Part shown: piece after piece, positions 40,649-59,321 of the stretch
How the letters are laid out: the number at the start of each line of letters is the position of its first letter
Numbering within the stretch: position 1 is the first letter of the stretch
Origin: Tepidiforma thermophila
Lineage (GTDB): Bacteria; Chloroflexota; Dehalococcoidia; Tepidiformales; Tepidiformaceae
Assembly (NCBI RefSeq): GCF_002563855.1
Contig: NZ_PDJQ01000001.1
Location: 744,001 to 808,000, forward strand
Reading direction: 5' to 3'
Length of the DNA stretch: 64,000 nucleotides
The notes under the pieces: generated by a model
The model's input: only the letters and a program-made list of their open reading frames with translations
Told to the model about the DNA's origin: nothing
Databases searched by the model: none
Position numbers and translations under genes: made by a program

Positions 40649-42594
40649 GTTGCAACCCTCAAATCCCCGCTAGGGGACTGAAACGGAGATATCCCTCGTA
40701 GAACTCCTCGTCCCGAGGATGAGGTTGCAACCCTCAAATCCCCGCTAGGGGACTGAAACGCCCCCGTCCCAGGCCGCACCGACGGCACGAACCCGTTGAC
40801 GTTGCAACCCTCAAATCCCCGCTAGGGGACTGAAACCGCGGATGTGGCACAGGATATCGAATGCGTTGGCCATGGTTGCAACCCTCAAATCCCCGCTAGG
40901 GGACTGAAACTCCTCGTAGATGAGGACATACCCGGGCCGGCCCCGGGAGTCGTTGCAACCCTCAAATCCCCGCTAGGGGACTGAAACTGTACTTTGAGCG
41001 CTCGCCCTTGCGCGTGAGCGCGTTGCGGTCAGGTTGCAACCCTCAAATCCCCGCTAGGGGACTGAAACCGCCACGAATGGGCGGCGAGGTCAGCGGCCTC
41101 GTCGAGGTTGCAACCCTCAAATCCCCGCTAGGGGACTGAAACGCTGAGTACTCGGCATCGATGAGTGCATCCGCAATGCGGCGCGGTTGCAACCCTCAAA
41201 TCCCCGCTAGGGGACTGAAACAACTGGAAAACTTCCTCCGCGCGGCCGCAGAGTTCCCCGAAGTTGCAACCCTCAAATCCCCGCTAGGGGACTGAAACAG
41301 CGCCCGGCTTCCCATGCCCCCAGACCGAGTAGTCGTACCCGGTTGCAACCCTCAAATCCCCGCTAGGGGACTGAAACTCGAATTCTTTTCCAATCTCCTT
41401 TTCCAGCATTGTTGTCTTGTTGCAACCCTCAAATCCCCGCTAGGGGACTGAAACGATGAAGGGCTTATCCTTGGTCCAGTCGGTCGGCTCATCAGACGTT
41501 GCAACCCTCAAATCCCCGCTAGGGGACTGAAACTTTACCGGTCCCTGTTTTCGGCTTTACGCTTTCGGCGTTGCAACCCTCAAATCCCCGCTAGGGGACT
41601 GAAACTTCCGGCCGATGTGGTGGCAGTAGTATGCCCGGCCATAGACGTTGCAACCCTCAAATCCCCGCTAGGGGACTGAAACCGCTCGTACGACCGCATG
41701 AACCGCTGCACGTCAGCGATGTTGCAACCCTCAAATCCCCGCTAGGGGACTGAAACGTCGGGATCGCCCGGTCACCCGGCTCGGTGAGGCCGTCGAGTTG
41801 CAACCCTCAAATCCCCGCTAGGGGACTGAAACTCCAGGACCTCGCCCGGCACCCCCTCGATATCCTCGATGTTGCAACCCTCAAATCCCCGCTAGGGGAC
41901 TGAAACGTAGCGGAGCGGGAGTCCGAGCTCCCGCCCGAGGCCGTCGAGTTGCAACCCTCAAATCCCCGCTAGGGGACTGAAACACCAGGATCCCTGGCCG
42001 ACCGCGCCGATCGTTCGTGGGGAGTTGCAACCCTCAAATCCCCGCTAGGGGACTGAAACAGCACGATATCGCGGCGGGGGAGGCACCCGCCGACGATGTT
42101 GCAACCCTCAAATCCCCGCTAGGGGACTGAAACTTTTGCGATGCGGCGCGCCCAATCCTGGGCGCCCTCATCGTTGCAACCCTCAAATCCCCGCTAGGGG
42201 ACTGAAACTCCAGTCGCGCTTGTTGAAGTTCTGGACGGCAGCCTGGAGTTGCAACCCTCAAATCCCCGCTAGGGGACTGAAACCCCCGCTCCTCCCTAAA
42301 GGAGTACTGGATGGCCGTCGGAAACTGTTGCAACCCTCAAATCCCCGCTAGGGGACTGAAACTCCATGAGCTGGGCCTTGGTCCAGCTCAGGTCAGGAGG
42401 TTGCAACCCTCAAATCCCCGCTAGGGGACTGAAACCTCTGGGTGATGCGGACGTCATTGGCGCCCGCGCCATTAACCTCGTTGCAACCCTCAAATCCCCG
42501 CTAGGGGACTGAAACAGGGAGAGCGTCCGCCTGGTCGGCAGACCCTCGATGTACCGGTGTTGCAACCCTCAAATCCCCGCTGGGGGACTGAAAC
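40649..42594 (+). CRISPR. CRISPR array 1: 26 repeats of 36 bases, 25 spacers
   Basis: The repeat starts GTTGCAACCCTCAAATCC and ends CTAGGGGACTGAAAC, with an inner TCCCC/GGGGA inverted repeat for the crRNA hairpin; the final ACTGAAAC is the expected 5' handle. Spacers are 36-45 bases, mostly 38-43. All repeats are identical except the last (starting 42559), where TAGGGG has become TGGGGG; a degenerate distal end places the leader on the left. No cas1-cas2 adjoin this array, so it probably relies on the type III-A genes further right. Confidence 0.98.
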
Positions 42595-42668
42595 CGTCGC
42601 TCCGCCTCAGCCTCCAGCCCCGGTGCCCCCCTTCGTAACCCTCCGCCCCGCGCAGCCCAGCGTTCCAC

Positions 42669-42974
42669 ATGGCCCAACGCCACGACCTCCGTCCCGGCAC
42701 CGCAGACGCGATAAGGCGTTCCCCCCGCGAAATCTGCCGCGTGTACATCCTCCACCATGCGGGACTGGAACCCCCGGGCGACGATGCCGCCGACGCCGTG
42801 ATCTTCAGCGACGGCGGCTGTCAAACCCCCGCCCTGTTCTGGTCAGACTGGCGCTCTTGGGCGGTCCAGTGTGATTGCCCCATCGAGAGCTTCGTTGTCC
42901 TCGTCTACCCGGCTCCTGGCTACGAGGCGTTCGCCCTCGAGGTCCGCGAATGGTGCAACGGCCTCCCGCCATAG
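42669..42974 (+). CDS. Hypothetical protein next to CRISPR array 1
   Basis: This 101-residue protein begins 74 bases after the last repeat. It has a credible folded composition, with Cys and Trp (CRVYILHHAG, ALFWSDWRSWAVQCDCPIES, VREWCNGLPP) and an acidic loop DDAADAV. The C-terminal half alternates strands and a helix. No family is recognised. Third-position GC is high, as in real genes here. Confidence 0.5.
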   Translation: MAQRHDLRPGTADAIRRSPREICRVYILHHAGLEPPGDDAADAVIFSDGGCQTPALFWSDWRSWAVQCDCPIESFVVLVYPAPGYEAFALEVREWCNGLPP

Positions 42975-43757
42975 GTGGCGGGCCCCTCCCCGTTCCCGGG
43001 ACGTCGGCCGGAGGCTCTGACCGCCCCCCCCCGCCGCGAAACAACACGGCACGCGTTGCTCCATGCTGCAGTCGCGGCAAGCCTCGCGTCGGTGGCGCCG
43101 AATTCCCGTTCCCGTCCTGCCATGCCCGGCCAGCCAGGCGCGCCGGGATGTCCGCTGCCTGGCGAGGTGGCTCGCTGGCTGACCGCAGGCTTTCGCTCGG
43201 CCTTCCCCGCAGTCCACCGGTTCCGGCCCGGTCACCCGGGCACGCGAACGCAGTGCGGTAACCTGGTCCCCGGCCTCGGCGTTTCCGGTTGTTGGCCTTC
43301 AGATGATATGGCGCAGACAACGAGCCACCGGCACCGCCCGGGAAGATCCCGGCCGGGAAGACGAGTTCCGCGAAGGGAAAGAGACCGCCGGGGCCTGGGA
43401 ACTGGCGCCCGCCTGCGCCCCCCTCCAGCCGCCCGGCCCCCAAATTTCCGCGCGTTCACGCCGGGGCCGTTAACTTTCCCCAGGTGATCGCGTTTGTATG
43501 TGAGGGCCCGCGCGATGGCACGCCCAAAAGGTCTCTTCACTGAGGCGCCTGCCCCCGGCCGCGAAAAATTTTTGTGGAAAACCCTTGTGCGCGAGGTGGA
43601 AGCCACATAGAATCAGCCGCCGTTTCGTTCGTCACGTCCGGTCCGCCCGGTCCCAGCAGTGAACCACTCCGAACCGCACCAGTCCGACACCACCGAGCCT
43701 CGCCCAGCCCTTGCGCTCCAGCCGCACGAGACCGCTTCCGCCAGGAGGGTGTGACGT
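42975..43757. other. Gene-poor stretch with a promoter-like element
   Basis: Only unconvincing frames are seen on both strands. A possible sigma70 promoter facing right lies at 43585-43613 (TTGTGC, 17 bases, TAGAAT), just after an A/T-rich run at 43564-43580. A transcript from here would reach the paralogue gene at 44207 after a leader of roughly 600 bases. Confidence 0.5.
43585..43613 (+). promoter_or_regulatory. Possible sigma70-type promoter
   Basis: TTGTGC (43585-43590), a 17-base spacer, and TAGAAT (43608-43613, five of six bases to consensus). It is preceded by an A/T tract that stands out in this GC-rich DNA. It points towards the unrecognised genes before cas6. Confidence 0.4.
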
Positions 43758-43919
43758 ATGGCCTTCCCGCGAAACCGGGCGTCGCGTTCGCGCCCGGCCG
43801 CTCGCGGTAACGTCGCCGTCCGGCAATCCGCCCGCGCAGTGTCGCTGACCCGCCCCGCGATGGCCCGGCCGGGACGCTGCCCGCAGTTTCCCCGTCCGGC
43901 TCGCCGGGCGCCCGCCTAG
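43758..43919 (+). CDS. Possible small basic protein (53 aa)
   Basis: ATG at 43758 follows AGGAGGG with ideal spacing. The product is 53 residues, starting MAFPRNRASRSRPAARG, with many Arg, Ala and Pro and little hydrophobic core. It may be a short leader peptide for the downstream genes or a chance frame. No family is seen. Confidence 0.3.
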   Translation: MAFPRNRASRSRPAARGNVAVRQSARAVSLTRPAMARPGRCPQFPRPARRAPA

Positions 43920-44206
43920 CGCCCGCATCCCCCGTGTGCTCGCCGGCGCGCACCCGCGCGGTGTCCGGCGCCTGTCCGTCGTTCCGTCCATCCCGGCCGA
44001 GAAGCGCCGGGACCCGTTCCGCAGCACCGACCTCGCCCGCCGCCGCTTCGTGCTCCACACCAGTCGCTGCTTGCACAGCGCCGACCCGGGTTCCGGAGGA
44101 AACGCCACAAAGCGATATGCACCTCTCCAGGTCTCCGCCTGCGTCCGTTGCCCGTCTGCCTTCGAAACCGTCCGCATCGCCGTGCAAACCAGGAAAGGAG
44201 GGAAGA

Positions 44207-44806
44207 TTGCAGGCTCCGCCCGAAGGTGTCTCCGGGCTTGTGGACGCCTGGGAGCAGACCGATCTGCCCCGCAACCATCCGCCGTTCGTCCTCGTCATCA
44301 ACCAGGACGCCGGCGAACGCCTCCTCGTCTGGCCCTGCGGCCAGCACTACGCCGTCAGCGAAGGGCAGCGCCCCCGCCGGCGCTTCCACCGCATCCGCTC
44401 GGTGCTCGAGCGGCAGTACGCGAGGTGGTTCGGCCGGGTCCCGGGGTCGCGCCGCGTATCCCGGTTACCCACCACCTGCACGGCCTGCCAGGTCCTGGGG
44501 TCCGACGAGCTCTTGCCCTGGGCTGCCATCTTCGCGGCCATGCCCGACAGCTACTTGCAGCAAATCGCCTACCGGTACGCTCTCGCGCTCGACCCCGGTC
44601 TCCGGTCAGCACTAATGGAGAAGAGCACAAAGTTCATCCGTCTGCCCCAGGCGGGGCCGCTCAGCGTCGCCGTGCATTCCCGGGGTGTCCGGTACGCCGG
44701 GACGCACGCCGGCCAGTTCTACCTCACAGCCTTCGATCCGACCGTCTATGGGCCAGACCTGGTCGACCAGTTCCTGGCTGCTGCCGAAGAATCGCCGCTC
44801 GACTGA
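44207..44806 (+). CDS. Unrecognised CRISPR-adjacent protein, paralogue 1
   Basis: This 199-residue protein starts at TTG 44207 after AAAGGAGGG. It shares a pattern with the protein at 45358-45924: a leading region with TDLPRNHPPFVL, a strand with LLVWPCGQHYAV (the other has LYWHCGARYVV), a Cys pair in LPTTCTACQ (the other GYTTCRQC), and a C-terminal QFYLTAFDP followed by DLVDQFL (the other HLYLTPTHPDLVD). A basic helix region lies between. The two are divergent copies of one family, which I do not recognise. No signal or membrane segments. Context suggests a defence role. Confidence 0.6.
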   Translation: MQAPPEGVSGLVDAWEQTDLPRNHPPFVLVINQDAGERLLVWPCGQHYAVSEGQRPRRRFHRIRSVLERQYARWFGRVPGSRRVSRLPTTCTACQVLGSDELLPWAAIFAAMPDSYLQQIAYRYALALDPGLRSALMEKSTKFIRLPQAGPLSVAVHSRGVRYAGTHAGQFYLTAFDPTVYGPDLVDQFLAAAEESPLD

Positions 44807-44808
44807 GG

Positions 44809-45189
44809 ATGAACAGGAGGGCCGAACTGATTCGCGACCACCACGCTGAGCAGCTTGCTACCCCGCTCGACGTCCTGCGCCGGCTCGCCAGGGTCAAAGC
44901 CGAACTCGAACGCCTGGAGGCCGAGGAGCAGGAACTGAGAGAGCGGCTCATGGTCTTCCTGCAGGACCTGCCCACCCCGGTGCTCGTCGACGACGCCGCG
45001 GGGCTGGAAGCCCGCTTGCTTGCCATCCGGCGCCGCACCATCGATGCCGGCAAAGTCCCGGCCGATCTCCTCGCCATCCTGGCCCGGCGCGACCTGGTGA
45101 CCGTCAAAGCCGCGGCAGCGCCGGTCGTCCCGCCGGAGGCCGTCACCGTCACGACCCGGCCCCAGCTCCGGGTGAGGCGCCGCTACTGA
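44809..45189 (+). CDS. Coiled-coil hypothetical protein
   Basis: This 126-residue protein starts two bases after the stop of paralogue 1 (ATG 44809). Residues 20-55 form a heptad coiled coil (LARVKAELERLEAEEQEL), followed by a mixed domain and a basic C-terminus (RPQLRVRRRY). The tight spacing implies one operon with paralogue 1, perhaps a partner. Not recognised. Confidence 0.55.
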   Translation: MNRRAELIRDHHAEQLATPLDVLRRLARVKAELERLEAEEQELRERLMVFLQDLPTPVLVDDAAGLEARLLAIRRRTIDAGKVPADLLAILARRDLVTVKAAAAPVVPPEAVTVTTRPQLRVRRRY

Positions 45190-45357
45190 GGTGGCGGTCT
45201 CCGCGGCGGTTGCCCGGTCGCCCTGGGCGCAACGGCGTACTCTGGCTCCGCTCCTGGCCCGGGACTTCGCCTGCCCCTTCCGGGGCTCGTCATCCCTCCG
45301 CACTGGGCCGACCCGTCTCCCGGGTCGCCCGCACGCATTCTGGGAGGTAGCTCAGAC

Positions 45358-45924
45358 ATGAGGGAAATCGAAATCGGAGGCAAAAAATACCGAGGCGTCT
45401 CCACAACGGAGGTCTTTGAAACAACGCGGCTCAGCCGTGCCCATCCCGCGGCCTTCGTGTTCCCCGGGCCGAGTGACGATGAATGGGTCCTCTACTGGCA
45501 CTGCGGCGCACGCTACGTCGTCGACATTTCCCGCGTCAGGACCCATTCCCGCCTCGACCGTCTCCGCTTCCGCCTCCAGCTGCTGCAGGCGCGGCTGCTG
45601 GGCAGGCGCCTCCAGAGCGGAGGCGGGTACACCACCTGCCGGCAGTGCTGGTACTGGAGCCATCCCGAGCTCCAAAACCTCACCCTCCTCCTCATCGGCT
45701 GGTCCGAGGACCAGGTGGCTGAATTCCTCTTCGAATGGATGAAGATGCGGCACCAGCGAGACATCTACCGGGGGGACGCCGACTTCGTCGTTCCAATCCC
45801 CGATTGGCCGTTCGGTCCCGTCAAGGCGCTCGAGGGGTATCGGTACTTCTGCCGGAAGGGCGGCCACCTCTACCTCACTCCAACCCACCCCGACCTCGTC
45901 GACCCCGCAGCTGAATTCGAATAG
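45358..45924 (+). CDS. Unrecognised CRISPR-adjacent protein, paralogue 2
   Basis: This 188-residue protein begins MREIEIGGKKYRG, after a GGGAGGT site. It shares with paralogue 1 the leading T-x-L-x-R-x-HP-x-x-FV, the W-x-CG-x-x-Y-x-V strand, an Arg-rich helix, the TTC-x-x-C pair (TTCRQCWYW), a middle region, and the terminal YLTPTHPDLVD. The best guess is a zinc-binding fold with a basic helix, possibly nucleic-acid binding. It converges with cas6, 15 bases away. No family is known to me. Confidence 0.62.
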   Translation: MREIEIGGKKYRGVSTTEVFETTRLSRAHPAAFVFPGPSDDEWVLYWHCGARYVVDISRVRTHSRLDRLRFRLQLLQARLLGRRLQSGGGYTTCRQCWYWSHPELQNLTLLLIGWSEDQVAEFLFEWMKMRHQRDIYRGDADFVVPIPDWPFGPVKALEGYRYFCRKGGHLYLTPTHPDLVDPAAEFE

Positions 45925-45939
45925 TCCCCGCAGGCGACG

Positions 45940-46740
45940 TCAGTTTCCCCGCCCTGGCCTGGCGCCCGTCTCGCCCTGGGCCTGGCTGGCCGGTCGCCCC
46001 GCCACAGTCGTCACGTCCACGCATCCGAAACCTGTGCTGACCTTCGCCCCCACGCCGGCGAACCGCGCAAACCGCGCCAGCACCCCAAGCAGCCCGCCGT
46101 ACGGCCCCCCGGCAGACCGGAGTTCGAATTCTGCCGCTCCCACGAAGCCCGGGACCAGCCCCTTTAATTGCACGGCTACGCTCGCCAGCCGGTGGCGGCG
46201 CACCACAATCCCCTCCAGCGCCGCCCCGGCCCCGGCGCCGAGGTCGACCGGCGCCCAGGTCTGCCACCGTTCCAGCAGCCCCCCGAATACCAGCTGCGGC
46301 ACGGGCAGCGGCAGGTAGTTCCCTTTCGATCGGAAGGTCGTCGGCGTCACGAAGTTCAGGGTCGTCCGCGTCTCCGGCGCCGGCGCAAGCAGCCCGGCAG
46401 CCAGCTCCGGCCACGTCGCCCGCTCCACCGCCGCCTCGCCTTCCCGTCGCCACCACCGCGCGTTGAGGAGCAGCCGGTCTGGCATGGTTCGGCTCAGGTC
46501 CAGCACGAACGGCGCAAGGATGCCGTAGGCCGTAACCACCAGCCGTTCATCCGGCTGCCGCCGCAGCGCAATCGAAAACGGCTTCTCCGCCGACATGTCG
46601 TGCAGGGCCGTCGCCAGCCCCTCGTCCCGCGTTGCGAGCTCCCGGTAGAACCACGCTTGCAGCGCCCGGCCGACAAACGCCGTCTCCTCGGCCTCGCCCT
46701 CCCACCTGCCGGGAACCTCGACGCGAACCAGCTCGTTCAC
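45940..46740 (-). CDS. cas6: CRISPR-associated endoribonuclease Cas6
   Basis: This 266-residue protein has the Cas6 layout: an N-terminal ferredoxin-like domain with LHDMSAEKPFSIAL (His47 a candidate catalytic residue) and a C-terminal one ending in LLGVLARFARFAGVGAKVSTGFG, the Gly-rich loop typical of the family, with LVPGFVGAAEFEL before it. It cuts the pre-crRNA within repeats to free the ACTGAAAC handle. GTG at 46740 overlaps the csm5 stop by four bases. It is the last gene of the effector operon. Confidence 0.88.
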   Translation of the reverse strand: MNELVRVEVPGRWEGEAEETAFVGRALQAWFYRELATRDEGLATALHDMSAEKPFSIALRRQPDERLVVTAYGILAPFVLDLSRTMPDRLLLNARWWRREGEAAVERATWPELAAGLLAPAPETRTTLNFVTPTTFRSKGNYLPLPVPQLVFGGLLERWQTWAPVDLGAGAGAALEGIVVRRHRLASVAVQLKGLVPGFVGAAEFELRSAGGPYGGLLGVLARFARFAGVGAKVSTGFGCVDVTTVAGRPASQAQGETGARPGRGN

Positions 46741-47831
46741 TGGACCGGCTGCGCCTCCGACACCATCACCCACCCCATCGGCAGCCAGCCGCCGGGGCCA
46801 TCAACCACCCGGTGCCCAACCGGGAAGTTCCCCGGGTCAGGCGACTTCGAACGCGAAAGGCGGTAGCGGTTGAGGAGCAGCTGCATCAGGTTGCGGTCGT
46901 CCCGCAGGTGGCGGCCGATCGTCTTGGCTACCCAGCCCGTGCCGAAGCCGACCGGGAAGACAATTTCACCAGCCGGCACCTTTCCTTCGAAGTTCGTGGC
47001 CACGTCCGGGTCATGTCGTCGCCAGTGCTCAAGCTCGATCTCCCGCAGCGCTGCCCCCCAGGTCTGCAGCACGCCAAGGAGGTTGCTCCCGAACAGCTCT
47101 TTCCGCCCTTTATCCAGTTCCCTCCACGGCGACCACTCGACGGGTGTAATCGTCAGCGTGGTCGAGAACTCGGCCCCCGGGCTGACCGCCTCGACCCACA
47201 CCGGGATCGCCTGTCGCCCCCGTGGCGAATCCGACCGCACCTGCACCTCCGAGGCCACCATCTTCGGCTCATTGGCCGGGAAGGCGTCGGCCAGCCGCAA
47301 CCAGCGGTTAATGTCCCGGTTAGGGAAATCGCCGCCCGGCCGGGTGCGCTCAACATCGACGTCGAACGCCCGTTGCTCAACGCCCCGGGCTGCCTGTTCC
47401 CGGGGCCCTCCCCCGGAGCGAACCAGCTCCCGCACCGTATCCCGGTTCTGCTGGACGAAGGCGTCGAGCAACGCCGACCGGAACGCACCCTTCAGCGTGG
47501 ACCCCGGGAGGTAGACCCTGCCCATCCCATCCCGGATGAACCCCAGCAGGTCCTGCCCCACGGCGCGCGTCCCATAAACCGGCAGCACCGCACGCGTCGC
47601 CCGCCCCAGGAGTTCCCCGGAGAGGGCGGCCGCAATCCGGCCGTCGGCAATGCGCGGGATAAGCTGGTCCGGCAGCAGCTCCAGCGCCCGGTCCACGTCG
47701 ACCAGGCGGACCTGCGTGCCGCCCTCGTCGCGAAAATCGTAGTCCCGGTGGTACCGAATTCCTGAACCGATATGCAGCGGGGTCAGGACCCGTACGGTGA
47801 GGCGGAACCGGAGCAATCGCGGCTGGGTCAC
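46737..47831 (-). CDS. csm5: Type III-A Csm5 (RAMP)
   Basis: This 364-residue RAMP protein has the Csm5 pattern: RLTVRVLTPLHIGSG near the start, VYLPGSTLKGAFRSALLDAF, and the later LLNRYRLSRSK. It caps the 3' end of the crRNA complex and guides maturation. GTG at 47831 overlaps the csm4 stop by four bases, and its own stop overlaps the cas6 start likewise, so translation is coupled. Confidence 0.9.
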   Translation of the reverse strand: MTQPRLLRFRLTVRVLTPLHIGSGIRYHRDYDFRDEGGTQVRLVDVDRALELLPDQLIPRIADGRIAAALSGELLGRATRAVLPVYGTRAVGQDLLGFIRDGMGRVYLPGSTLKGAFRSALLDAFVQQNRDTVRELVRSGGGPREQAARGVEQRAFDVDVERTRPGGDFPNRDINRWLRLADAFPANEPKMVASEVQVRSDSPRGRQAIPVWVEAVSPGAEFSTTLTITPVEWSPWRELDKGRKELFGSNLLGVLQTWGAALREIELEHWRRHDPDVATNFEGKVPAGEIVFPVGFGTGWVAKTIGRHLRDDRNLMQLLLNRYRLSRSKSPDPGNFPVGHRVVDGPGGWLPMGWVMVSEAQPVQ

Positions 47832-48853
47832 AGGCGCACCTCGTCGAGAAAGAGTCCGAGGCCGTACCGGTAAACCGGGTGCCCCCGCCCCGCCTCCGGA
47901 GTCACATCCGCGAGCCCGCCCCCGGGCCCCTTTCCCCCCAGGTACGACCCTTCGGCCAGCATGCCGACCCGTTTCGAGCGCCACCCGCTCCACTCCTCCG
48001 AGGAAATCCACCCTCCCCGCTCCACTACCCGGTAGCCGCGGTCGGGGTCGAGCTGCAGCGCGCCGGCAGCGAGGTCGGCCTGCGTTGGCCAGCAGAGCGA
48101 GAGGGTCGGACCAGCCGCCGGGTCCGGGGTGACCGGCAGATCGCACGCCTCAGGTCCCAGCAGCTCGAAGCGGCCCAGCCCGCTCGAACGCTCCCCGCCG
48201 ATACCGGCCTCCCCAAGCAGCCTGAGGCACGTCGTCAGGCCTTCCAGCGCTGCCTCGTCGGCCACCCACGCCACGACTCCCGGCACGAATTGCCCGGCTC
48301 GCCGGTTCCCGTCGCCGTTCAGTGAGAAGTGGGTCGCCGCTGATTCGTAGAGCGCCGAGGCCCCCGAGAGCCGGTCGACCGTGACCCTCGGCCGGGACTG
48401 CACCGCCCACGATGCCTCTTCCTGTCGGGTCTCCAGTCCGAAGCCCAGCAGCTCGCCCGCACGCCTTGGAGTCCCGCTGGGTGCCCCTTCCCGGAACAGC
48501 CAGCGGTAGGCGCCCCGGTCGATGAATGACACCGGCCGCAGGAACTTGCGGTCTTCAAACTGCCGGACCGGTCTGCGAACCGGCAGCGGAAAGAACACCT
48601 CGGCCAGTTTCCCGTCTGTCCACCGGACCGGCAGCATGCTCGAGATGCGAATCGGTGGTTCTGCGGACCGCATCTCGTTGAGCCATGCTTCGAGCACCCC
48701 GGTGCCGAAAAGTGCTCGCATCGCCCAGCAGAGCGCCCCGAAGAGCGTGTCCGAGGCAGCCAGCGCACGAGCCCGGTCGAGGTCCTCGGCGTGCGACCCG
48801 AGCCGGAGCGGCGACCGCGGCTGGAGCCCGAAGACCCAGGCGGAGGGCGGCAT
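47828..48853 (-). CDS. csm4: Type III-A Csm4 (RAMP)
   Basis: This 341-residue RAMP protein holds the 5' handle of the crRNA and contacts Cas10. Features: VFGLQPRSPLRLGSHAEDLDRARALAASDTLFGALCWAM, the SDTLFGAL pattern characteristic of Csm4, a mid FLRPVSFIDR, and GEAGIGGERSSGLGRFELL, the Gly-rich C-terminal loop. It lies between csm3 (two-base gap) and csm5 (four-base overlap). Confidence 0.9.
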   Translation of the reverse strand: MPPSAWVFGLQPRSPLRLGSHAEDLDRARALAASDTLFGALCWAMRALFGTGVLEAWLNEMRSAEPPIRISSMLPVRWTDGKLAEVFFPLPVRRPVRQFEDRKFLRPVSFIDRGAYRWLFREGAPSGTPRRAGELLGFGLETRQEEASWAVQSRPRVTVDRLSGASALYESAATHFSLNGDGNRRAGQFVPGVVAWVADEAALEGLTTCLRLLGEAGIGGERSSGLGRFELLGPEACDLPVTPDPAAGPTLSLCWPTQADLAAGALQLDPDRGYRVVERGGWISSEEWSGWRSKRVGMLAEGSYLGGKGPGGGLADVTPEAGRGHPVYRYGLGLFLDEVRL

Positions 48854-48855
48854 TG

Positions 48856-49647
48856 CTACGCCGCCGCCCAGGCAGCGAGGTCATCGAGCGCCCGCCGGAG
48901 CTCGGCAACCGTCGGGTAGGTCGCCGGCCCCTGCCTCGGGACCAGCCGCTGCCCATCGACCTTCAGCTGGCGCACGGAGATGTTGGTGAACGCCACTCTC
49001 CCGGAACCGCGTGCCCCCGAGGAGCCCAGCGCATCGGCCTCCAGCAGGTCCAGCCCGTCGGTCAGCCACTGCAGGCCTGTCGCGATGCGATCGCCCTCGT
49101 AGACGAACAGCCCGATATCGCATGGGCCGAACTCCGCACCCGCCGGGACTCGCTCCATCGTCCGGGGAACCGCCGCCGACGTGACCCGGTCGATCGCCGC
49201 CTCCGACTTGAGCTCGGTGAACGGCAGGTCGGTAGCGGCATCCATCAGGCGTTTTACCGACGCTTCCGTGAGAAAGACATCCGAGAACCGCAGCCGTGTC
49301 TGGCAGAGCCACCGCTCCCGTTGCGGCGCCGGCGCGCCGAACAGCTGGCAGAGCGTGCACTTCGAATACTCCTCCTCCTGCTCGCACACATGCACGTGGA
49401 CCCGGTTGCGCTGGATGGCCCAGTTCTGGTCGAGCCCATGAACCCGCTCCAGGAGCGACCGCATCTTTCCTTTTATAGAAGACCCCGGAATGTAGGGCTG
49501 CCGCGTGAGCGGGTCTCGCACCACCGGGTTATCGACACCCCCGATCGTGAGAGATGCCTCCTGGGCGCCGATCCGCAGGCCGGTCCTTGCAACGACCGTC
49601 GAACTCAGGGTCAGGATGCTTGTTATCGTGGCAGGGTTATCAGCCAA
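48856..49647 (-). CDS. csm3: Type III-A Csm3, backbone RNase subunit
   Basis: This 263-residue RAMP protein forms the filament and cleaves target RNA every six bases. The catalytic Asp is probably Asp39 in IGGVDNPVVRDP, followed by PYIPGSSIKGKMRSLLE. A zinc-binding group is made by VHVHVC plus KCTLC (Cys88, Cys97, Cys100). Later come ELKSEAAIDRVTSAAVPR and MERVPAG, the diagnostic Csm3 stretch, and SSGARGSGRVAF. The start is TTG at 49647 after AAGGGGG. Confidence 0.94.
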   Translation of the reverse strand: MADNPATITSILTLSSTVVARTGLRIGAQEASLTIGGVDNPVVRDPLTRQPYIPGSSIKGKMRSLLERVHGLDQNWAIQRNRVHVHVCEQEEEYSKCTLCQLFGAPAPQRERWLCQTRLRFSDVFLTEASVKRLMDAATDLPFTELKSEAAIDRVTSAAVPRTMERVPAGAEFGPCDIGLFVYEGDRIATGLQWLTDGLDLLEADALGSSGARGSGRVAFTNISVRQLKVDGQRLVPRQGPATYPTVAELRRALDDLAAWAAA

Positions 49648-49674: not shown

Positions 49675-50133
49675 TTACTTCTCAGGAAGGTAGGCCACGA
49701 CGGCCTCGAAGAAATCCGTGAGTCGCCGATATCGCGCCTTCCCCTCGTCTTCGTTCTGCGCTTTTCCAACCTGCTGGACCATCGCTGCCAGGACCGCCCC
49801 GAGGTCCCTCAGCTTCTCGTCGCGCTTCACCTGGTAGTTCAGCCTCGGTTCCAGCAGTCGCGCCCGCCGCAGCGCGCGCTGCGGGTCTTGGTCGAGCAGG
49901 AAATCGATCCTCCGCGCTTCACCATAGAGGCGCCGCACCGAGGTCCGCGTCGCGCCAGAGGTCGCCAGCCGCTCCGCCAGGCCGATCAGGGCCTCCACAT
50001 CGTCGCGCACAATGATCCGCTCGGCCTCCGACGCATACCTCGTCGCATCGACTGCAGCCGCCCGGCCTTGCTGCTCTGGCGGCCGGCGGTTGCCCTGGTA
50101 GCCTCCCTGGCCTGGCCGTTGAAACTGCGTCAT
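49675..50133 (-). CDS. csm2: Type III-A Csm2, small subunit
   Basis: This 152-residue protein has a disordered Gly/Gln N-terminus (FQRPGQGGYQGNRR) and then a helical bundle, SEAERIIVRDDVEALIGLAERLA, with RARLLEPRLNYQVKRDEKLRDLG and a final RRLTDFFEAVVAYLPE typical of Csm2. It bridges Cas10 and Csm5 along the filament. ATG at 50133 overlaps the cas10 stop by four bases. Confidence 0.88.
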   Translation of the reverse strand: MTQFQRPGQGGYQGNRRPPEQQGRAAAVDATRYASEAERIIVRDDVEALIGLAERLATSGATRTSVRRLYGEARRIDFLLDQDPQRALRRARLLEPRLNYQVKRDEKLRDLGAVLAAMVQQVGKAQNEDEGKARYRRLTDFFEAVVAYLPEK

Positions 50134-52532
50134 ACCTGAGCACCTCCTGCCCGTCGTCTCTGGTCGGTGTTGCCATCGCTGGCCGTCCGCAGCTCGGCAA
50201 GCCGGGCCGCGAGCGCTACCCGCCGGCCCCCCGGCTCGCCGCCAATCTCCGTCTCGAACGCCTCCTTGCGCAGGGCCTTCAGCACCTGCTCAGCCTCAGG
50301 GTGGTCCCGCGCCACCCGGTTCAGCTGGTAGTACGAGCGCCAGACCAGCGGCTCATACCGTCCCGGTGCCGCGTGCTCCAGCAGTTGCAGGTGCTGGAGT
50401 GCCCGCCGGGCGAGCTGCTTCCTGCCGTTCTGCCCCCGCACCAGCGAGACCAGCGTCTGCGTATGCCGGAGCACGTCCTCGAATCCCGCCCACGTCAGCC
50501 ACACGTCGAGCGCCACCACGGCATCCTTCGGACGAGTCTTGTCCGGCCGCTCCCCCTTGGCCTTGCCCAGCGCTCCCTCCGCAGCCTCGATGCCGGCCTG
50601 CACCGGCCGTTGCGCGTGGGCGACCGTCACGCCCGCGGAAAAATGCAGCGCAGGGTTGCCTGCTGTCCAGCGCCGGAACTCCTCCCTGAGCTCCCGCGCG
50701 AAGTCCAGCACGTCGAACAGCGGGCCCGCCAGCGCCGTGTCGTCCCCTCCGCTGAAAATGAGATAGATGTTCGGGTACTTCCTGGCAGCGAACTCCGGGA
50801 GGTACGCCTCGAAAAACAGCGATAGCGCCGTGCTGATCGCCAGGAAGCGCGAAGGCGACGGCCGCTTGCGCTCGAAGTACCGCTGCAGGAAGAGGCCGAG
50901 ATCGTCGACGTCAGCTTTCATCGTCGCGATCAGCTTTCGACCTTCGCTGCGCTCCGCAATTTCCCCAAAATCCAGCAGCCCCTCCTCCGAACGCGGCGCA
51001 TACCGGCCCGTCGCCACAAGGCGTGCACACGGCAGCCTCCGCAGCCCGTCTGAATCCAGCGCGATGACTGCCCCCCGGACCACCCGCTCCGGCGGCTTAC
51101 TTGCAAGCTCGACCCGGTGCCCCAGCGCGGCCATCACCCTCCGCCACCCCGTCGCACGCTCCCCGGGCTCCGTGGGCTCCAGCACCACGAACTCCGAATC
51201 GAGCAGCTCCCGCCCGAGCTCCTCCAGCGAGGCGCACATGCCGCAAACGCGCCGCTCCACACCGTCGTCGTCCTCCGTCCGGCCTTCAATCGCCTCACGC
51301 CCGCACGTCCGGCACGCCCGCCCCATCGACGCCACCGCCTGCGGCTCAAAGAGCGCCCCGCTCCGGGCCAGCCCCGCGAACTTCCGCGATTTCCGTGCGG
51401 AAAGCTCCTCCCGCAGCCGGCGGTGCACGTCCCGAAATTCCTGGATTTCTTTTCCGGAGAACACCATCGCCGCCAGGTTCAGCGAAAGGACCGGCCCGTG
51501 CGCCCGGAACAGCACCCGGTCCAGCTCCTCCTGCAGCTGCTCCACCATCCCGACACGGCTCGCAGGCACGGCAACCTGGAACTGGCCCCCAACCACGGAG
51601 AACGCGCACCAGGGCGGCACCCCGCAGCGGATTGCCACCCACCGGGCTGCCACCAGGCTCAGCAGCTGAATATAAAAGGAACGAGCCCGCAGAGCCCGGG
51701 CCGCCCTCCGGCTCCCGGTGTCGTGAATGAACTCTTGGATCCCGGAGACATCCCCGGCGACAATCCCTACCGTCGTTTCCTCGGCCGTCCGTGCCGGGCT
51801 GCCGTCAGCCGCCAGCGCCGCCGCAAACACCCCCGCAAGATGCAGGTGCGTCGCCAGCGGAATATCCGCCACCGTGTTCATGAACGCCGACGGCACCCCC
51901 ATCGCACCCCGGTACACCGCCCCCGTCAGGTGCTCGCTGAGCGCCAGCCAGTCTCCTCCCGAAAGCGCCGCCGCCGCTTCCAGCCCCGAGCGCAGCCCGT
52001 CGAACACGCCGCCGAACGCCGCCTTTGCCCGGTCACCCTCACTGCTCCTCAGCTGCCCGAACAGCAGCTCCGAATCCAGCAGCCGCGGCAAGACGTACAC
52101 GTCCCTGTCCAGGCTGGCCAGCGGATTCAGCAGCGCCGGGACTGGCGTCCCTGCGTCGCGCTCGCCCCGGTCGTAGCGGTCATCCCGCTCGCCCGCCGAA
52201 AGGTGGTCCCCCAGCACCACCCACCGCACCAGGTCGCCCAGCTCCTCCGCGTCTGGCGCATGGTGCAGCGCCGCCGCATCCGCCAGCCCCCGGAACTCCG
52301 GCAGCGTCTCCCGCGCCAGCGTCCCGCTCATCGCCGCGTGGGCGTACCGGTACCGCCGCTTGCAGCTCTCGCAATCAGCGAACCTCACCTGGTGCTGGTC
52401 CGGTGTCTCGCAATCAAACCGCGAAGGTTCCGTCCCCCGCCCCTGCACCTGCGCCCACACCTTCCCCAGGTCATGGAACAGACCCGCGCAGTATGTCCGC
52501 AGGACCTCCTCCGAAATCTCCCAGGACATCAT
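50130..52532 (-). CDS. cas10: Cas10/Csm1, cyclic-oligoadenylate-producing large subunit
   Basis: This 800-residue protein carries an N-terminal HD nuclease motif (LFHDLGKV, around residue 20), with LHHAPD and GDHLSAGERDD further on, as in type III-A Csm1. A zinc ribbon lies near residues 404-430 (CRTCG, then CGMC). The palm polymerase has IFSGGDD at about 595-598, which makes cyclic oligoadenylates from ATP on target RNA binding. Both HD and GGDD appear intact. It heads the operon; Met1 (52532) and Met2 are both possible starts, after a GGAG. Confidence 0.94.
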   Translation of the reverse strand: MMSWEISEEVLRTYCAGLFHDLGKVWAQVQGRGTEPSRFDCETPDQHQVRFADCESCKRRYRYAHAAMSGTLARETLPEFRGLADAAALHHAPDAEELGDLVRWVVLGDHLSAGERDDRYDRGERDAGTPVPALLNPLASLDRDVYVLPRLLDSELLFGQLRSSEGDRAKAAFGGVFDGLRSGLEAAAALSGGDWLALSEHLTGAVYRGAMGVPSAFMNTVADIPLATHLHLAGVFAAALAADGSPARTAEETTVGIVAGDVSGIQEFIHDTGSRRAARALRARSFYIQLLSLVAARWVAIRCGVPPWCAFSVVGGQFQVAVPASRVGMVEQLQEELDRVLFRAHGPVLSLNLAAMVFSGKEIQEFRDVHRRLREELSARKSRKFAGLARSGALFEPQAVASMGRACRTCGREAIEGRTEDDDGVERRVCGMCASLEELGRELLDSEFVVLEPTEPGERATGWRRVMAALGHRVELASKPPERVVRGAVIALDSDGLRRLPCARLVATGRYAPRSEEGLLDFGEIAERSEGRKLIATMKADVDDLGLFLQRYFERKRPSPSRFLAISTALSLFFEAYLPEFAARKYPNIYLIFSGGDDTALAGPLFDVLDFARELREEFRRWTAGNPALHFSAGVTVAHAQRPVQAGIEAAEGALGKAKGERPDKTRPKDAVVALDVWLTWAGFEDVLRHTQTLVSLVRGQNGRKQLARRALQHLQLLEHAAPGRYEPLVWRSYYQLNRVARDHPEAEQVLKALRKEAFETEIGGEPGGRRVALAARLAELRTASDGNTDQRRRAGGAQV

Positions 52533-52653: not shown

Positions 52654-53889
52654 GTGCCGACAATCCTCCTCGCCACCATTGGCAAACGAGACCCCTTCGA
52701 CAGGGGCGAACCAACCGGGCCACTCCGCCTCGCGCGTGAAACGAAGCCCGACCGCGCGCTCCTGGTCGCCACCGCCGCCGTGCGCGCCCAGGCCGAGGCA
52801 ACCGCCGCCGAACTCCAGGCCCTCGGCATCGAGATCGCCATCGACATCCTCGACGACCTTCGCCGGAACGTGCCCGACCTCGCAGTCAGCGTCTCCGACC
52901 TCCTCCTCGCCGGCCGCGACCTCATCCGCCGCCGCCCCGAGCTCAAAGAGGCCGAGGTCATCACCTGCTTCACCTCCGGCACCCCCCAGATGTCGATCGC
53001 CTTCACCCTCGTCGTCCGCTCCCTCCTCCCCCGCGCCCGCCACTTCCAGGCCCTCAACCCCGCCGAGGCCCAGGGCAATCCCCTGCGCGAGTTCGACCCC
53101 GACGCCCTCGTTCACCTCGACGCCCGCGACCGCACCCTCGAGGCCCTCGCCGCCGGCAACGCCGCCGCTGCCCTCGCCGCCGGCGAACCGCTCCTCAACC
53201 TGCCCGCCGGCACCCCGCCGCCCTGGGACCAGAAAGCCCTCAAAGCCGCCGTCACCATCGCCCGCGCACTCGTCGCCGTCGAAAACTACCAGCGGCAATG
53301 GCTCCGGCAGGTCGCCGCCAACATCCCGGCCAGGGCCGGCGGCGCCGACCTCTCCCACCTCAAATCCTGGCTCGAACGGTGCAGCAGCGACGACCTCGCC
53401 TGGGGCGCCGAGCTCGCCGCCTGCTCCCTCCGCCTCCAGGCCGCCGACCGTCCCGCCCAGGCGATCCTCGTGGCAGCCACCGCCGCCGAAGTCATCATTT
53501 CCGCCGGCCTCCGCCGCGCCGGCATCGACCCCGACGACATCCGCGACCCCGCCCGGTTGCCGTCCGGCTTCACCGAAAAGGACCGCGTGAGCATCGACGG
53601 CGGCCGCTGGCGCATCGAAGGCCTCCAGCGCCGCGCAAAGCTCCTCGAAGCCCTCTCACCCGCCTACCGCCGCGCCGTCGAAGAACAGGACGCCGAAACA
53701 CTTCGCGCCCGCCTCGCCGGCGCCCGCAACGAAGCCGTCCACCAGGGCCGCCAGGTGACCGGGGAGGCCCTCGAAGCCGCCGCAGCCTACCTTCGGATCC
53801 TCGCCGAGGCCGTCGGCGCCCCCGCCCCCTCCAGCCTTCCCACAATTCCCTCGAGTCTCAGCGCTCTTGTCCAGCTATGGCGCACCTGA
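52654..53889 (+). CDS. CARF-HEPN ribonuclease, Csm6-like (TIGR02710-type)
   Basis: This 411-residue protein starts with a CARF Rossmann-like domain (VPTILLATIG, then TKPDRALLVATAAV-like strand) and has the nucleotide-sensing TSGTPQM at 107-113. The C-terminal helical part has the HEPN active motif R-x4-H at Arg358 to His363 (ARNEAVHQG). CARF domains bind cyclic oligoadenylate and switch on the HEPN RNase during type III immunity. GTG at 52654 has no strong ribosome site. It is divergent from cas10 and upstream of cas1. Confidence 0.87.
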   Translation: MPTILLATIGKRDPFDRGEPTGPLRLARETKPDRALLVATAAVRAQAEATAAELQALGIEIAIDILDDLRRNVPDLAVSVSDLLLAGRDLIRRRPELKEAEVITCFTSGTPQMSIAFTLVVRSLLPRARHFQALNPAEAQGNPLREFDPDALVHLDARDRTLEALAAGNAAAALAAGEPLLNLPAGTPPPWDQKALKAAVTIARALVAVENYQRQWLRQVAANIPARAGGADLSHLKSWLERCSSDDLAWGAELAACSLRLQAADRPAQAILVAATAAEVIISAGLRRAGIDPDDIRDPARLPSGFTEKDRVSIDGGRWRIEGLQRRAKLLEALSPAYRRAVEEQDAETLRARLAGARNEAVHQGRQVTGEALEAAAAYLRILAEAVGAPAPSSLPTIPSSLSALVQLWRT

Positions 53890-55314: not shown

Positions 55315-56681
55315 GTTGCAACCCTCGAATCCCCGCTAGGGGACTGAAACCAGCCGTCCGGATCGAGCAGGCTCCCGTCCTCGTAGACGAGCAGTTGCAA
55401 CCCTCGAATCCCCGCTAGGGGACTGAAACCTGTGGCCTGCCATCTTCAGCGCCGGGAGGCCATCCCCGGCGGAGTTGCAACCCTCGAATCCCCGCTAGGG
55501 GACTGAAACGACAACTGCCGTGAAATTGCCGCCCGCCCGCGGCGACGCGCCGTTGCAACCCTCGAATCCCCGCTAGGAGACTGAAACCCTACCGGGACGG
55601 GAACGTGTTACCATCTGCGTGCAGCCTCGTTGCAACCCTCGAATCCCCGCTAGGGGACTGAAACGCCGTTCTCCACCAGCACGGCACGCACGGCACGGCG
55701 AAGAGTTGCAACCCTCGAATCCCCGCTAGGGGACTGAAACCCGACGGGAACTCAGCCGCCAGTTCCAGCACCAGCTGCGGCAGTTGCAACCCTCGAATCC
55801 CCGCTAGGGGACTGAAACTCGGATTTCCCTCCTCGGGGGTTGGGCTCCCCGCCCAGCGTTGCAACCCTCGAATCCCCGCTAGGGGACTGAAACCCCCGGC
55901 GATCCTCGGTCGGGATCGCCCGGTCGCCGACCTGTTGCCACCCTCGAATCCCCGCTAGGGGACTGAAACTGGGGAGATCGTAGCCGGCGTACAGTTCGCG
56001 AATAAGATCGCGTTGCAACCCTCGAATCCCCGCTAGGGGACTGAAACCCCGCAGGGATGATCGCGACGGCCCGCTGGCCGTCAATCGTTCCAGTTGCAAC
56101 CCTCGAATCCCCGCTAGGGGACTGAAACTGGCCCTTCTGCCGCGCGAACTGCGCAGCAAGGGCCCAAGTTGCAACCCTCGAATCCCCGCTAGGGGACTGA
56201 AACGCTTACGCTTGGCCAGCATTTTCACGGCCAGAATAAAAAGGTCGGTTGCAACCCTCGAATCCCCGCTAGGGGACTGAAACCTCACGGAGCGCTCCCT
56301 ACGACCGCCGACCCGATCGGCAAGGGTTGCAACCCTCGAATCCCCGCTAGGGGACTGAAACTCATAGTCGGTGCTGACCGGCATGGTCAGGAGAACGCGC
56401 CGGGAGTTGCAACCCTCGAATCCCCGCTAGGGGACTGAAACCCAGTAGTCAGCATCACTAGCGTAGGACTGCCAGTTTGCGCGCGGTTGCAACCCTCGAA
56501 TCCCCGCTAGGGGACTGAAACCCCGGCTTCAAGCCGGACTGGCAGCACCGTGACCGAATCGCCATTGTTGCAATCCTCGAATCCCCGCTAGGGGACTGAA
56601 ACGGCCGATCGGCAGGCACCCAACCCTCAACGTACGCCGGTCCGGGTTGCAATCCTCGAATCCCCGCTAGGGGACTGAAAC
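55315..56681 (+). CRISPR. CRISPR array 2: 18 repeats of 36 bases, 17 spacers
   Basis: The repeat is identical to array 1 except at base 13: CCCTCGAATCC here and CCCTCAAATCC in array 1. Spacers are 39-45 bases. Variants are in repeat 4 (TAGGAG for TAGGGG), repeat 9 (TTGCCA for TTGCAA) and the last two repeats (CAATCC for CAACCC), so the distal end on the right has decayed and the leader is on the left. It adjoins cas1-cas2. Confidence 0.98.
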
Positions 56682-56857: not shown

Positions 56858-57392
56858 GTTCGAGAACGTACCGGACAGCCCTACCGCACCGACTGCATGG
56901 TCGCCCTCAATGCGCAGCCGTGCTGCTCAACCCGGATTCCCGCCACCCCGCAGTTCCTCGCCTGCGACAACAACCCAGCGGTGCCTTGCCCGGCCGCCGC
57001 GGCCGGGTGCTCGTTCGCGACACACCGGAGCCGGATCGCATGGTCGACCGCACCCGCCCCGCGTTCACCGGCGAGGACATCCAGCGCAGCGTCGATACGT
57101 GCCACGCCTGGCGCGTCGAACGGGAGTCCTGCCCGGCGGCGGGGATATGCCCGGCCTTTGCAAATCAGCTACGCTCAACCGGGAGCCCAGGCACGGCAAC
57201 GTGCCAGCACCGGGCCGCTGCGTCGGACCTGAAGTAGTCATCGAAGTAGTAATTAAGGAAGGTGACGCCGGGCCGTTCGAGGAGACGATGCAGCGCCTTG
57301 TGGCGCAACTCGACGAGCAGAAGGCAGAAGCCGCCAGTCTCGGCGCCGCAATCGCCGGGAGCCCGGAGGAGCGTGGATATGTCGGGAGCTGA
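56858..57392 (+). pseudogene. Decayed type I restriction methylase HsdM C-terminus
   Basis: Three frames carry successive stretches of an HsdM-like N6-adenine methylase. One frame reads TDCMVALNAQPCCSTRIPAT and PQFLACDNNP; the next reads RRGRVLVRDTPEPDRMVDR and FTGEDIQRSVDTCHAWR; the third reads [19 protein letters not shown]-like [20 protein letters not shown] and ends GYVGS. Intact homologues have these in this order (VDCMVALPGQLFYSTQIP, ARKLGRMVDRTHRE, EDIQRIADTYHAWR, GFCKSATL, PFEEKMQRL). At least two frameshifts separate them, and the catalytic domain is absent. It lies right after array 2. Confidence 0.75.
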
Positions 57393-57669
57393 CCCCATCA
57401 GCGAGAAGCGCGAGGCAATTCTCCGGCTCTGTGCCCGTTACGGCGCCCGCAACCCCCGGCTGTTCGGTTCCAGGGCCCGCGGTGAGGCAGACGAACAAAG
57501 CGACATCGACCTCCTCGTCGAACTTGAGCCCGGGCGTACCCTCCTCGACCTCGGCGGCCTGCAATACGAACTCGAGCAGCTGCTCGGCCGGCCGGTCGAC
57601 GTCGTGACCGAGCGCGGCCTCAAGGCACGGCTCCGTGAACGGGTGCTGCGCGAGGCAGTTCCCCTGTGA
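57379..57669 (+). CDS. mntA: MntA-type nucleotidyltransferase antitoxin
   Basis: This 96-residue minimal nucleotidyltransferase has GSRARG (30-35), the metal pair Asp42/Asp44 ([10 protein letters not shown]) and the third Asp74 (GRPVDVV). MntA adds AMP to a Tyr of the HepT toxin to neutralise it. ATG at 57379 follows GGAGGAG within the end of the hsdM remnant. It overlaps hepT by four bases (GTGA). Confidence 0.88.
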
Positions 57670-58019
57670 GAGACCCCAGGGAGCGACTGCGCGACATGCT
57701 CGAAGCCATCGCGGCCATCGAGCGGTACCTCGGGCGCGGGCAGGCAGCCTTCGAGCAGGACGAGCTGCTCCAGGGCTGGTTTGTCCGCAACCTCCAGGTC
57801 ATCGGCGAGGCCGCCCGGGCCCTGCCGCAGGAGACACGGGACCTCGCCCCCGATGTCCCGTGGCCCGCCATCATCGGCATGCGGAACGTCCTTGTGCACG
57901 GATATTTCGATATCGACACCGCCATCGTCTGGGAAGCGGCCAGCCGCGACCTCCCCGCGCTCAGGCCGCGGCTCGAAGCGCTGCTGCAGCGGCTGGAGGA
58001 GCAGGCGGAGCGAGAATGA
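57666..58019 (+). CDS. hepT: HepT-like HEPN RNase toxin (DUF86)
   Basis: This 117-residue HEPN protein has the RNase motif R-x4-H-x-Y at Arg73, His78 and Tyr80 ([11 protein letters not shown]); the Tyr is the residue AMPylated by MntA in characterised systems. The preceding [16 protein letters not shown] is a DUF86 mark. GTG at 57666 overlaps mntA. The pair is intact and probably functional as a toxin-antitoxin module. Confidence 0.88.
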
Positions 58020-59209: not shown

Positions 59210-59321
59210 GTTGCAACCATCGAGTCACCACTAGGGGACCGAATCTTGTCGGAACCTCACCGCGGTAATTACACCGGTTTCAGACGTTGTAACCCTCGAA
59301 TCCCCGCCAGGAAACTCAACG
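59210..59321 (+). CRISPR. Relict two-repeat CRISPR remnant
   Basis: Two degenerate copies of the array 2 repeat flank a 40-base spacer-sized stretch (59246-59285). The first (59210-59245) starts GTTGCAACCATCGAGTC and retains ACTAGGGGACCGAA; the second (59286-59321) starts GTTGTAACCCTCGAATCC and ends with a damaged GGAAACTCAAC. The G at repeat base 13 ties both to array 2 rather than array 1. Confidence 0.8.

Follow-up and report, generated by a model that had tools for sequence, protein, structure and literature searches.

Between a CRISPR array and a type III operon of Tepidiforma thermophila lie two small genes that the initial annotation did not recognise. It read them as an undescribed paralogous family and possibly as a new ancillary module of type III systems. 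Are they a family, and how are they tied to CRISPR? The window analyzed is a stretch of 64,000 nucleotides, and positions given alone refer to it.

Two paralogous genes under purifying selection

Both open reading frames were present on the + strand. Protein A (A-type; 44207..44806) has 199 aa and a TTG start. It consists of an N-terminal putative zinc domain of the form H-C-CxxC with an Arg-rich helix, followed by a C-terminal domain. Protein B (B-type; 45358..45924) has 188 aa, and its gene stands tail to tail with cas6. BLASTP aligned A with B over 182 columns at 26% identity (E 7e-7). In searches of the genome, A as query retrieved B at E 1.3e-5, and B retrieved A at E 2.5e-6. The Smith–Waterman scores of four A–B pairs, compared with 1000 shuffles, ranged from +13.6 SD (A and B within the window) to +28.6 SD (A and the B of a sister species). 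By sequence, A and B are true paralogues. The initial annotation had named a lack of significant alignment between the two proteins as evidence against a family; the pairwise BLASTP E-value and the shuffle test of 13.6–28.6 SD both bore the family out.

The motif order common to A and B was L-x-R-x-HP, W-x-C-x-x-x-Y-x-V, an Arg-rich stretch, TTC-x-x-C, YL...P, and (D/E)L. The order of the motif series described before was thus confirmed, but two of its elements were not. A has HP-P-FV, one residue short of HP-x-x-FV, and the Gly of the CG motif is not invariant, being Arg in the B protein of the sister species.

The orthologue of B, which occupies the corresponding position in the sister species, is 59% identical to it, and the A of the window shared 56–57% identity with the A-type copies linked to type I-G loci, which are described below. 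Between the genome of the window and the sister species, dN/dS was 0.39 for the orthologous I-G copies of A and 0.31 for B. These values fall inside the range of the adjoining cas genes (0.15–0.46). A dN/dS of about 0.3–0.4 between orthologues indicates that A and B are real genes under purifying selection.

The type III locus

The type III arrays of the window are read on the + strand. Array 1 (40649..42594, 26 repeats) lies before the family genes, and array 2 (55315..56681) belongs to the same type III system. A conserved stretch ending in GTCAATAGA was found 5' of the first repeat of the arrays in both species, and decayed repeats were found at the opposite end. The leader of array 1 is therefore placed at its low-coordinate side, with the family genes beyond the leader-distal end. 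On the other side of the family genes, the − strand carries cas6 (45940..46773, PF10040), csm5 (46737..47831, a RAMP protein and PADLOC Csm5), csm4 (47828..48853, PF17953), csm3 (48856..49647, a RAMP protein), and cas10/csm1 (50130..52532). A gene for a CARF-type Csx1/Csm6-like protein follows on the + strand (52654..53889).

The family genes abut cas6, as had been noted: 15 nt separate the end of B from the end of the convergent cas6, and this tail-to-tail placement occurs in both species. In the sister species, B starts about 60 nt or less from the last decayed repeat, so co-transcription of B with the array is possible there, judging from this spacing. A search for a sigma-70-like promoter in 42500–46000 of the window found none.

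An ORF for a coiled-coil protein of 126 aa (44809..45189, + strand) lies between A and B. It starts 2 nt past the stop codon of A, in agreement with the coupling proposed by the initial annotation, but it is not a conserved part of a module. The sister species contains no relative of it, and it was rejected as a core partner.

A toxin–antitoxin pair of the MntA-HepT type (PF01909 and PF01934) was observed at 57379–58019. It follows array 2, which ends at 56681, and precedes two decayed repeats at 59210–59321. The pair is absent at the corresponding place in the sister species (L031).

Copies at type I-G loci and distribution of the family

The genome of the window (G000, one contig of 2.74 Mb) contains a third copy at C1:277795-278373, 500 kb from the window copies and 57% identical to A. 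It is located directly upstream of a complete type I-G operon, on the same strand. The operon comprises csb1 (PF09617), csb2 (PF09609), cas3, cas8g, a cas4-cas1 fusion, and cas2; past cas2 follows an array with over 90 repeats. A and the I-G operon are arranged alike in the sister species G004 (L012), where B lies beside the same type III operon as in the window (L013). In both genomes, the stretch between A and csb1 contains a conserved palindrome, TTTGCGCAAA (L011:9678 and L012:9855), which was not found at the type III locus.

In total, five intact members of the family and a B-type remnant were recovered, none of them outside the two sister species. The survey of genomic context, suggested with the initial annotation, found all five intact copies and the remnant next to CRISPR-Cas genes or arrays, and these belong to two unrelated types, I-G and III. 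Homologues lying mostly far from defence genes, which would have spoken against the proposal, were not seen, as neither genome has a copy away from its CRISPR loci. A weak match of the family profile in the sister species proved to be the B-type remnant (L031:9156-9434). This decayed or truncated copy follows array 2 at a distance of about 120 nt. The profile E-value was 7e-5, and a stretch of 31 nt had 94% DNA identity to B.

Among the six genomes of the genus, csb1 occurs in only two, and both have A 5' of it. Three have a clear type III cas10, and B accompanies two of these. The third, G001, has no B. Its type III operon (L035 7751-14169) is broken into many short frames, and its second array contains Ns; the locus is either decayed or poorly assembled.

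No relative of the family was found in 400 genomes of the phylum. At 17 other csb1 loci of the phylum, no A was present in the sequence upstream of csb1, which in some cases was truncated by the end of the contig. An association with CRISPR across distant taxa was thus not seen in these two sets. IMG/VR, GTDB contigs, phages, and plasmids gave no relative either; the scans of IMG/VR and GTDB contigs used short peptide patterns, which reach close relatives only. Among the weak profile matches in the phylum, the best one followed (L016) was an ORF rich in Arg and Ser; its alignment spanned just 48 residues, and it was dismissed as a chance match.

Scans of A and B against Pfam, NCBIfam, PHROGs, and PADLOC gave nothing significant, and PADLOC-DB 2.0 had no family at E ≤ 0.1 for either protein. 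The absence of a match in all four profile libraries agrees with the description of the family as new. The family is narrow, lineage-specific, and tied to type I-G as well as type III. The idea of a type III-associated module was therefore right in part: the family stands at the type III locus in both species, but it is not confined to type III, since each genome also has a copy at the head of a type I-G operon, and the coiled-coil gene is not conserved with it. All evidence for the association was gathered in two sister species, and the copies therefore do not count as independent events. The lack of B in G001 with its type III locus and of A at the 17 other csb1 loci indicates that the protein is not essential to either system.

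A putative zinc domain around an Arg-rich helix

The only invariant His and Cys residues in the five proteins are H24, C44, C91, and C94 (A numbering). W, Y, and many Arg residues are also invariant. The Arg-rich helix lies between C44 and the CxxC, and further invariant residues (F, P, RY, G, YL, and P) belong to the C-terminal part. The Cys pairs, suspected earlier of forming a zinc site, amount to one CxxC; the rest of the invariant set is one His and one Cys. The arrangement of H, C, and CxxC around an Arg-rich helix suggests a zinc nucleic-acid-binding domain.

3D structures of A and B were modeled using AlphaFold2. The alignment was shallow and the models were weak, with mean pLDDT of 66 and 69 and pTM of 0.51 and 0.58, and the CxxC of A is located in the least certain stretch of its model. 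Both weak models have, in order, a helix, three strands, the Arg-rich helix, the CxxC region, and a helix. A sequence search of the PDB with the family found nothing. VIA-align found no PDB match at Z ≥ 5 for the model of A or B, and a search of a viral structure library gave nothing significant.

A possible resemblance to the PylSn domain

The order of conserved residues recalls PylSn, the N-terminal tRNA-binding domain of pyrrolysyl-tRNA synthetase. PylSn (TIGR03912; 5ud5 and 5v6x) and the family share a His, then C(G) about 18–20 residues later, a Val 5–6 residues on, an Arg-rich helix, T-C-x-x-C, and a helix. M. mazei PylSn reads IYIEMACGDHLVV...RALR...KTCKRCRVSDEDL, and an A-type member reads LVLIWPCGQHYAV...RLR...TTCKACQVLGADDL. 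The zinc ligands of PylSn are His24, Cys42, Cys71, and Cys74. The only invariant His and Cys residues of the family fall at these presumed ligand positions, and all five proteins have the order His-Cys-Cys-x2-Cys. Unlike PylSn, the family has a long insertion between the Arg-rich helix and the CxxC and an extra C-terminal domain of about 90 residues, and it has no pyl genes or tRNA nearby. PylSn is an RNA-binding domain that binds one zinc ion, and its fold is reported to occur in no other known synthetase (PMC11467909).

Foldseek was run against 350,542 PDB chains. For the A model, PylSn (5v6x/5ud5) ranked first and second with E of 0.25 and 0.36; for the B model, it ranked second and sixth with E of 0.39 and 1.8. 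All these matches are below significance (E 0.25–1.8, TM 0.36–0.40 of the target, rmsd 6–12 Å, query models with pLDDT 66–69). The tests are not independent, because both models were built from a single alignment and residue identity is also taken into account by Foldseek. With VIA-align, neither model matched PylSn at Z ≥ 2. Using hhalign, we compared the family with an alignment of about 50 archaeal PylSn sequences. The E-values of 0.03–0.04 are not significant alone, the best part was the W-x-CG segment, and 1–4 of 150 shuffled profiles reached these scores. When 52 PylSn sequences were searched with the family model, E was about 1 or worse.

None of the five members matched TIGR03912 (PylS_Nterm) at its cut-off of 51.15 bits. 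The model had no match in either of the two genomes, and the phylum survey gave sub-threshold matches only. PylSn has the C-terminal part of pylS, pylBCD, and tRNA-Pyl as its genomic partners, and it binds this tRNA at the T-loop and variable loop. No tRNA was found in the family loci, where the neighbours are cas genes and no pyl genes. A search for known RNAs and tRNAs near the loci found CRISPR repeats only, apart from sub-threshold chance matches. We regard the resemblance as a lead pointing to RNA binding; the family is not assigned to PylSn.

Possible functions

The sequences and their surroundings suggest a hitherto undescribed protein that assists CRISPR systems and perhaps binds RNA. 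Our tentative reading, possible though short of probable, is that A and B are a narrow, lineage-specific accessory family of CRISPR-Cas, with zinc- and RNA-binding ability, that acts on the maturation, stability, or loading of crRNA. One paralogue type would be kept for each CRISPR type, A with I-G and B with III-A, and the A of the window would be an additional copy of the I-G type that stands at the III locus. The basic N-terminal domain probably holds zinc through its invariant His, Cys, and CxxC, and the Arg-rich helix may bind nucleic acid, most likely a structured RNA. The ligand could be CRISPR-derived RNA, such as the hairpin that the repeat forms in pre-crRNA or crRNA, or else a different structured RNA. 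Once bound, the protein would help crRNA maturation, stability, or loading. The repeats of both CRISPR types fold into hairpins. A shared RNA-handling step is the simplest guess, since all copies are at CRISPR loci of two unrelated types with such repeats. A more specific proposal, which we consider unlikely, is that a PylSn-like zinc RNA-binding domain was recruited to CRISPR-Cas immunity, its paralogues being specialised for I-G and III and binding crRNA repeats or tRNA-like RNA.

The same narrow distribution would also fit a passenger, that is, a lineage-specific gene (e.g. counter-defence, toxin-like, or mobile-element cargo) that settled repeatedly in insertion-collecting CRISPR loci and has no role in CRISPR immunity. 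The decayed copy at array 2 of the sister species, the MntA-HepT cargo inserted at array 2 in the window, and the lack of the family in G001 are consistent with this. However, the place beside csb1 and cas6 that is retained between species, together with purifying selection, speaks against it; the absence of copies off CRISPR loci in either genome and of any phage, plasmid, or IMG/VR relative also argues against it, and we regard it as somewhat doubtful. The basic zinc-type domain could instead bind DNA, in which case the protein would locally regulate the transcription of cas operons or arrays or take part in spacer acquisition. The position of A just 5' of the csb1 operon, with the TTTGCGCAAA palindrome conserved between them in both genomes, favours such a role, as does the position of B at an array end. 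Yet the palindrome is missing from the III locus, the array end next to B is the leader-distal one, away from the usual entry of new spacers, and no known DNA-binding family was matched, so that this role seems distinctly improbable to us.

Type III loci often encode small ancillary proteins, and the Csx-type ancillary proteins of type III and I-G systems are likewise encoded by small genes beside cas operons. A and B might then be very diverged members of such a family, beyond recognition by profile libraries. Unlike these proteins, they matched none of the ancillary models tested, and their family is found with two unrelated CRISPR types within a single genome. PADLOC, Pfam, and NCBIfam gave no match to a Cas family, and solved Cas proteins were matched neither in sequence nor in fold; we consider this origin very unlikely.

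If the reading as an RNA-binding CRISPR accessory is true, two unrelated CRISPR types in one cell have an accessory family in common, with one copy type per system. Such sharing would be a natural starting point for the study of cross-talk or of a step that both have in common, e.g. crRNA handling. If the resemblance to PylSn holds, that domain would have had a second career.

Other genes beside the type I-G loci

In both genomes, the family gene at the I-G locus is preceded on its strand by genes for two more conserved proteins of 159 and 152 aa (L012:11134-12232 and L011:11075-12076). They had no Pfam match. Beside the I-G locus of the sister species, we also observed a helicase pair with the MrfA zinc-binding domain (MZB) at L012:12532-17189, which is perhaps part of a defence island.
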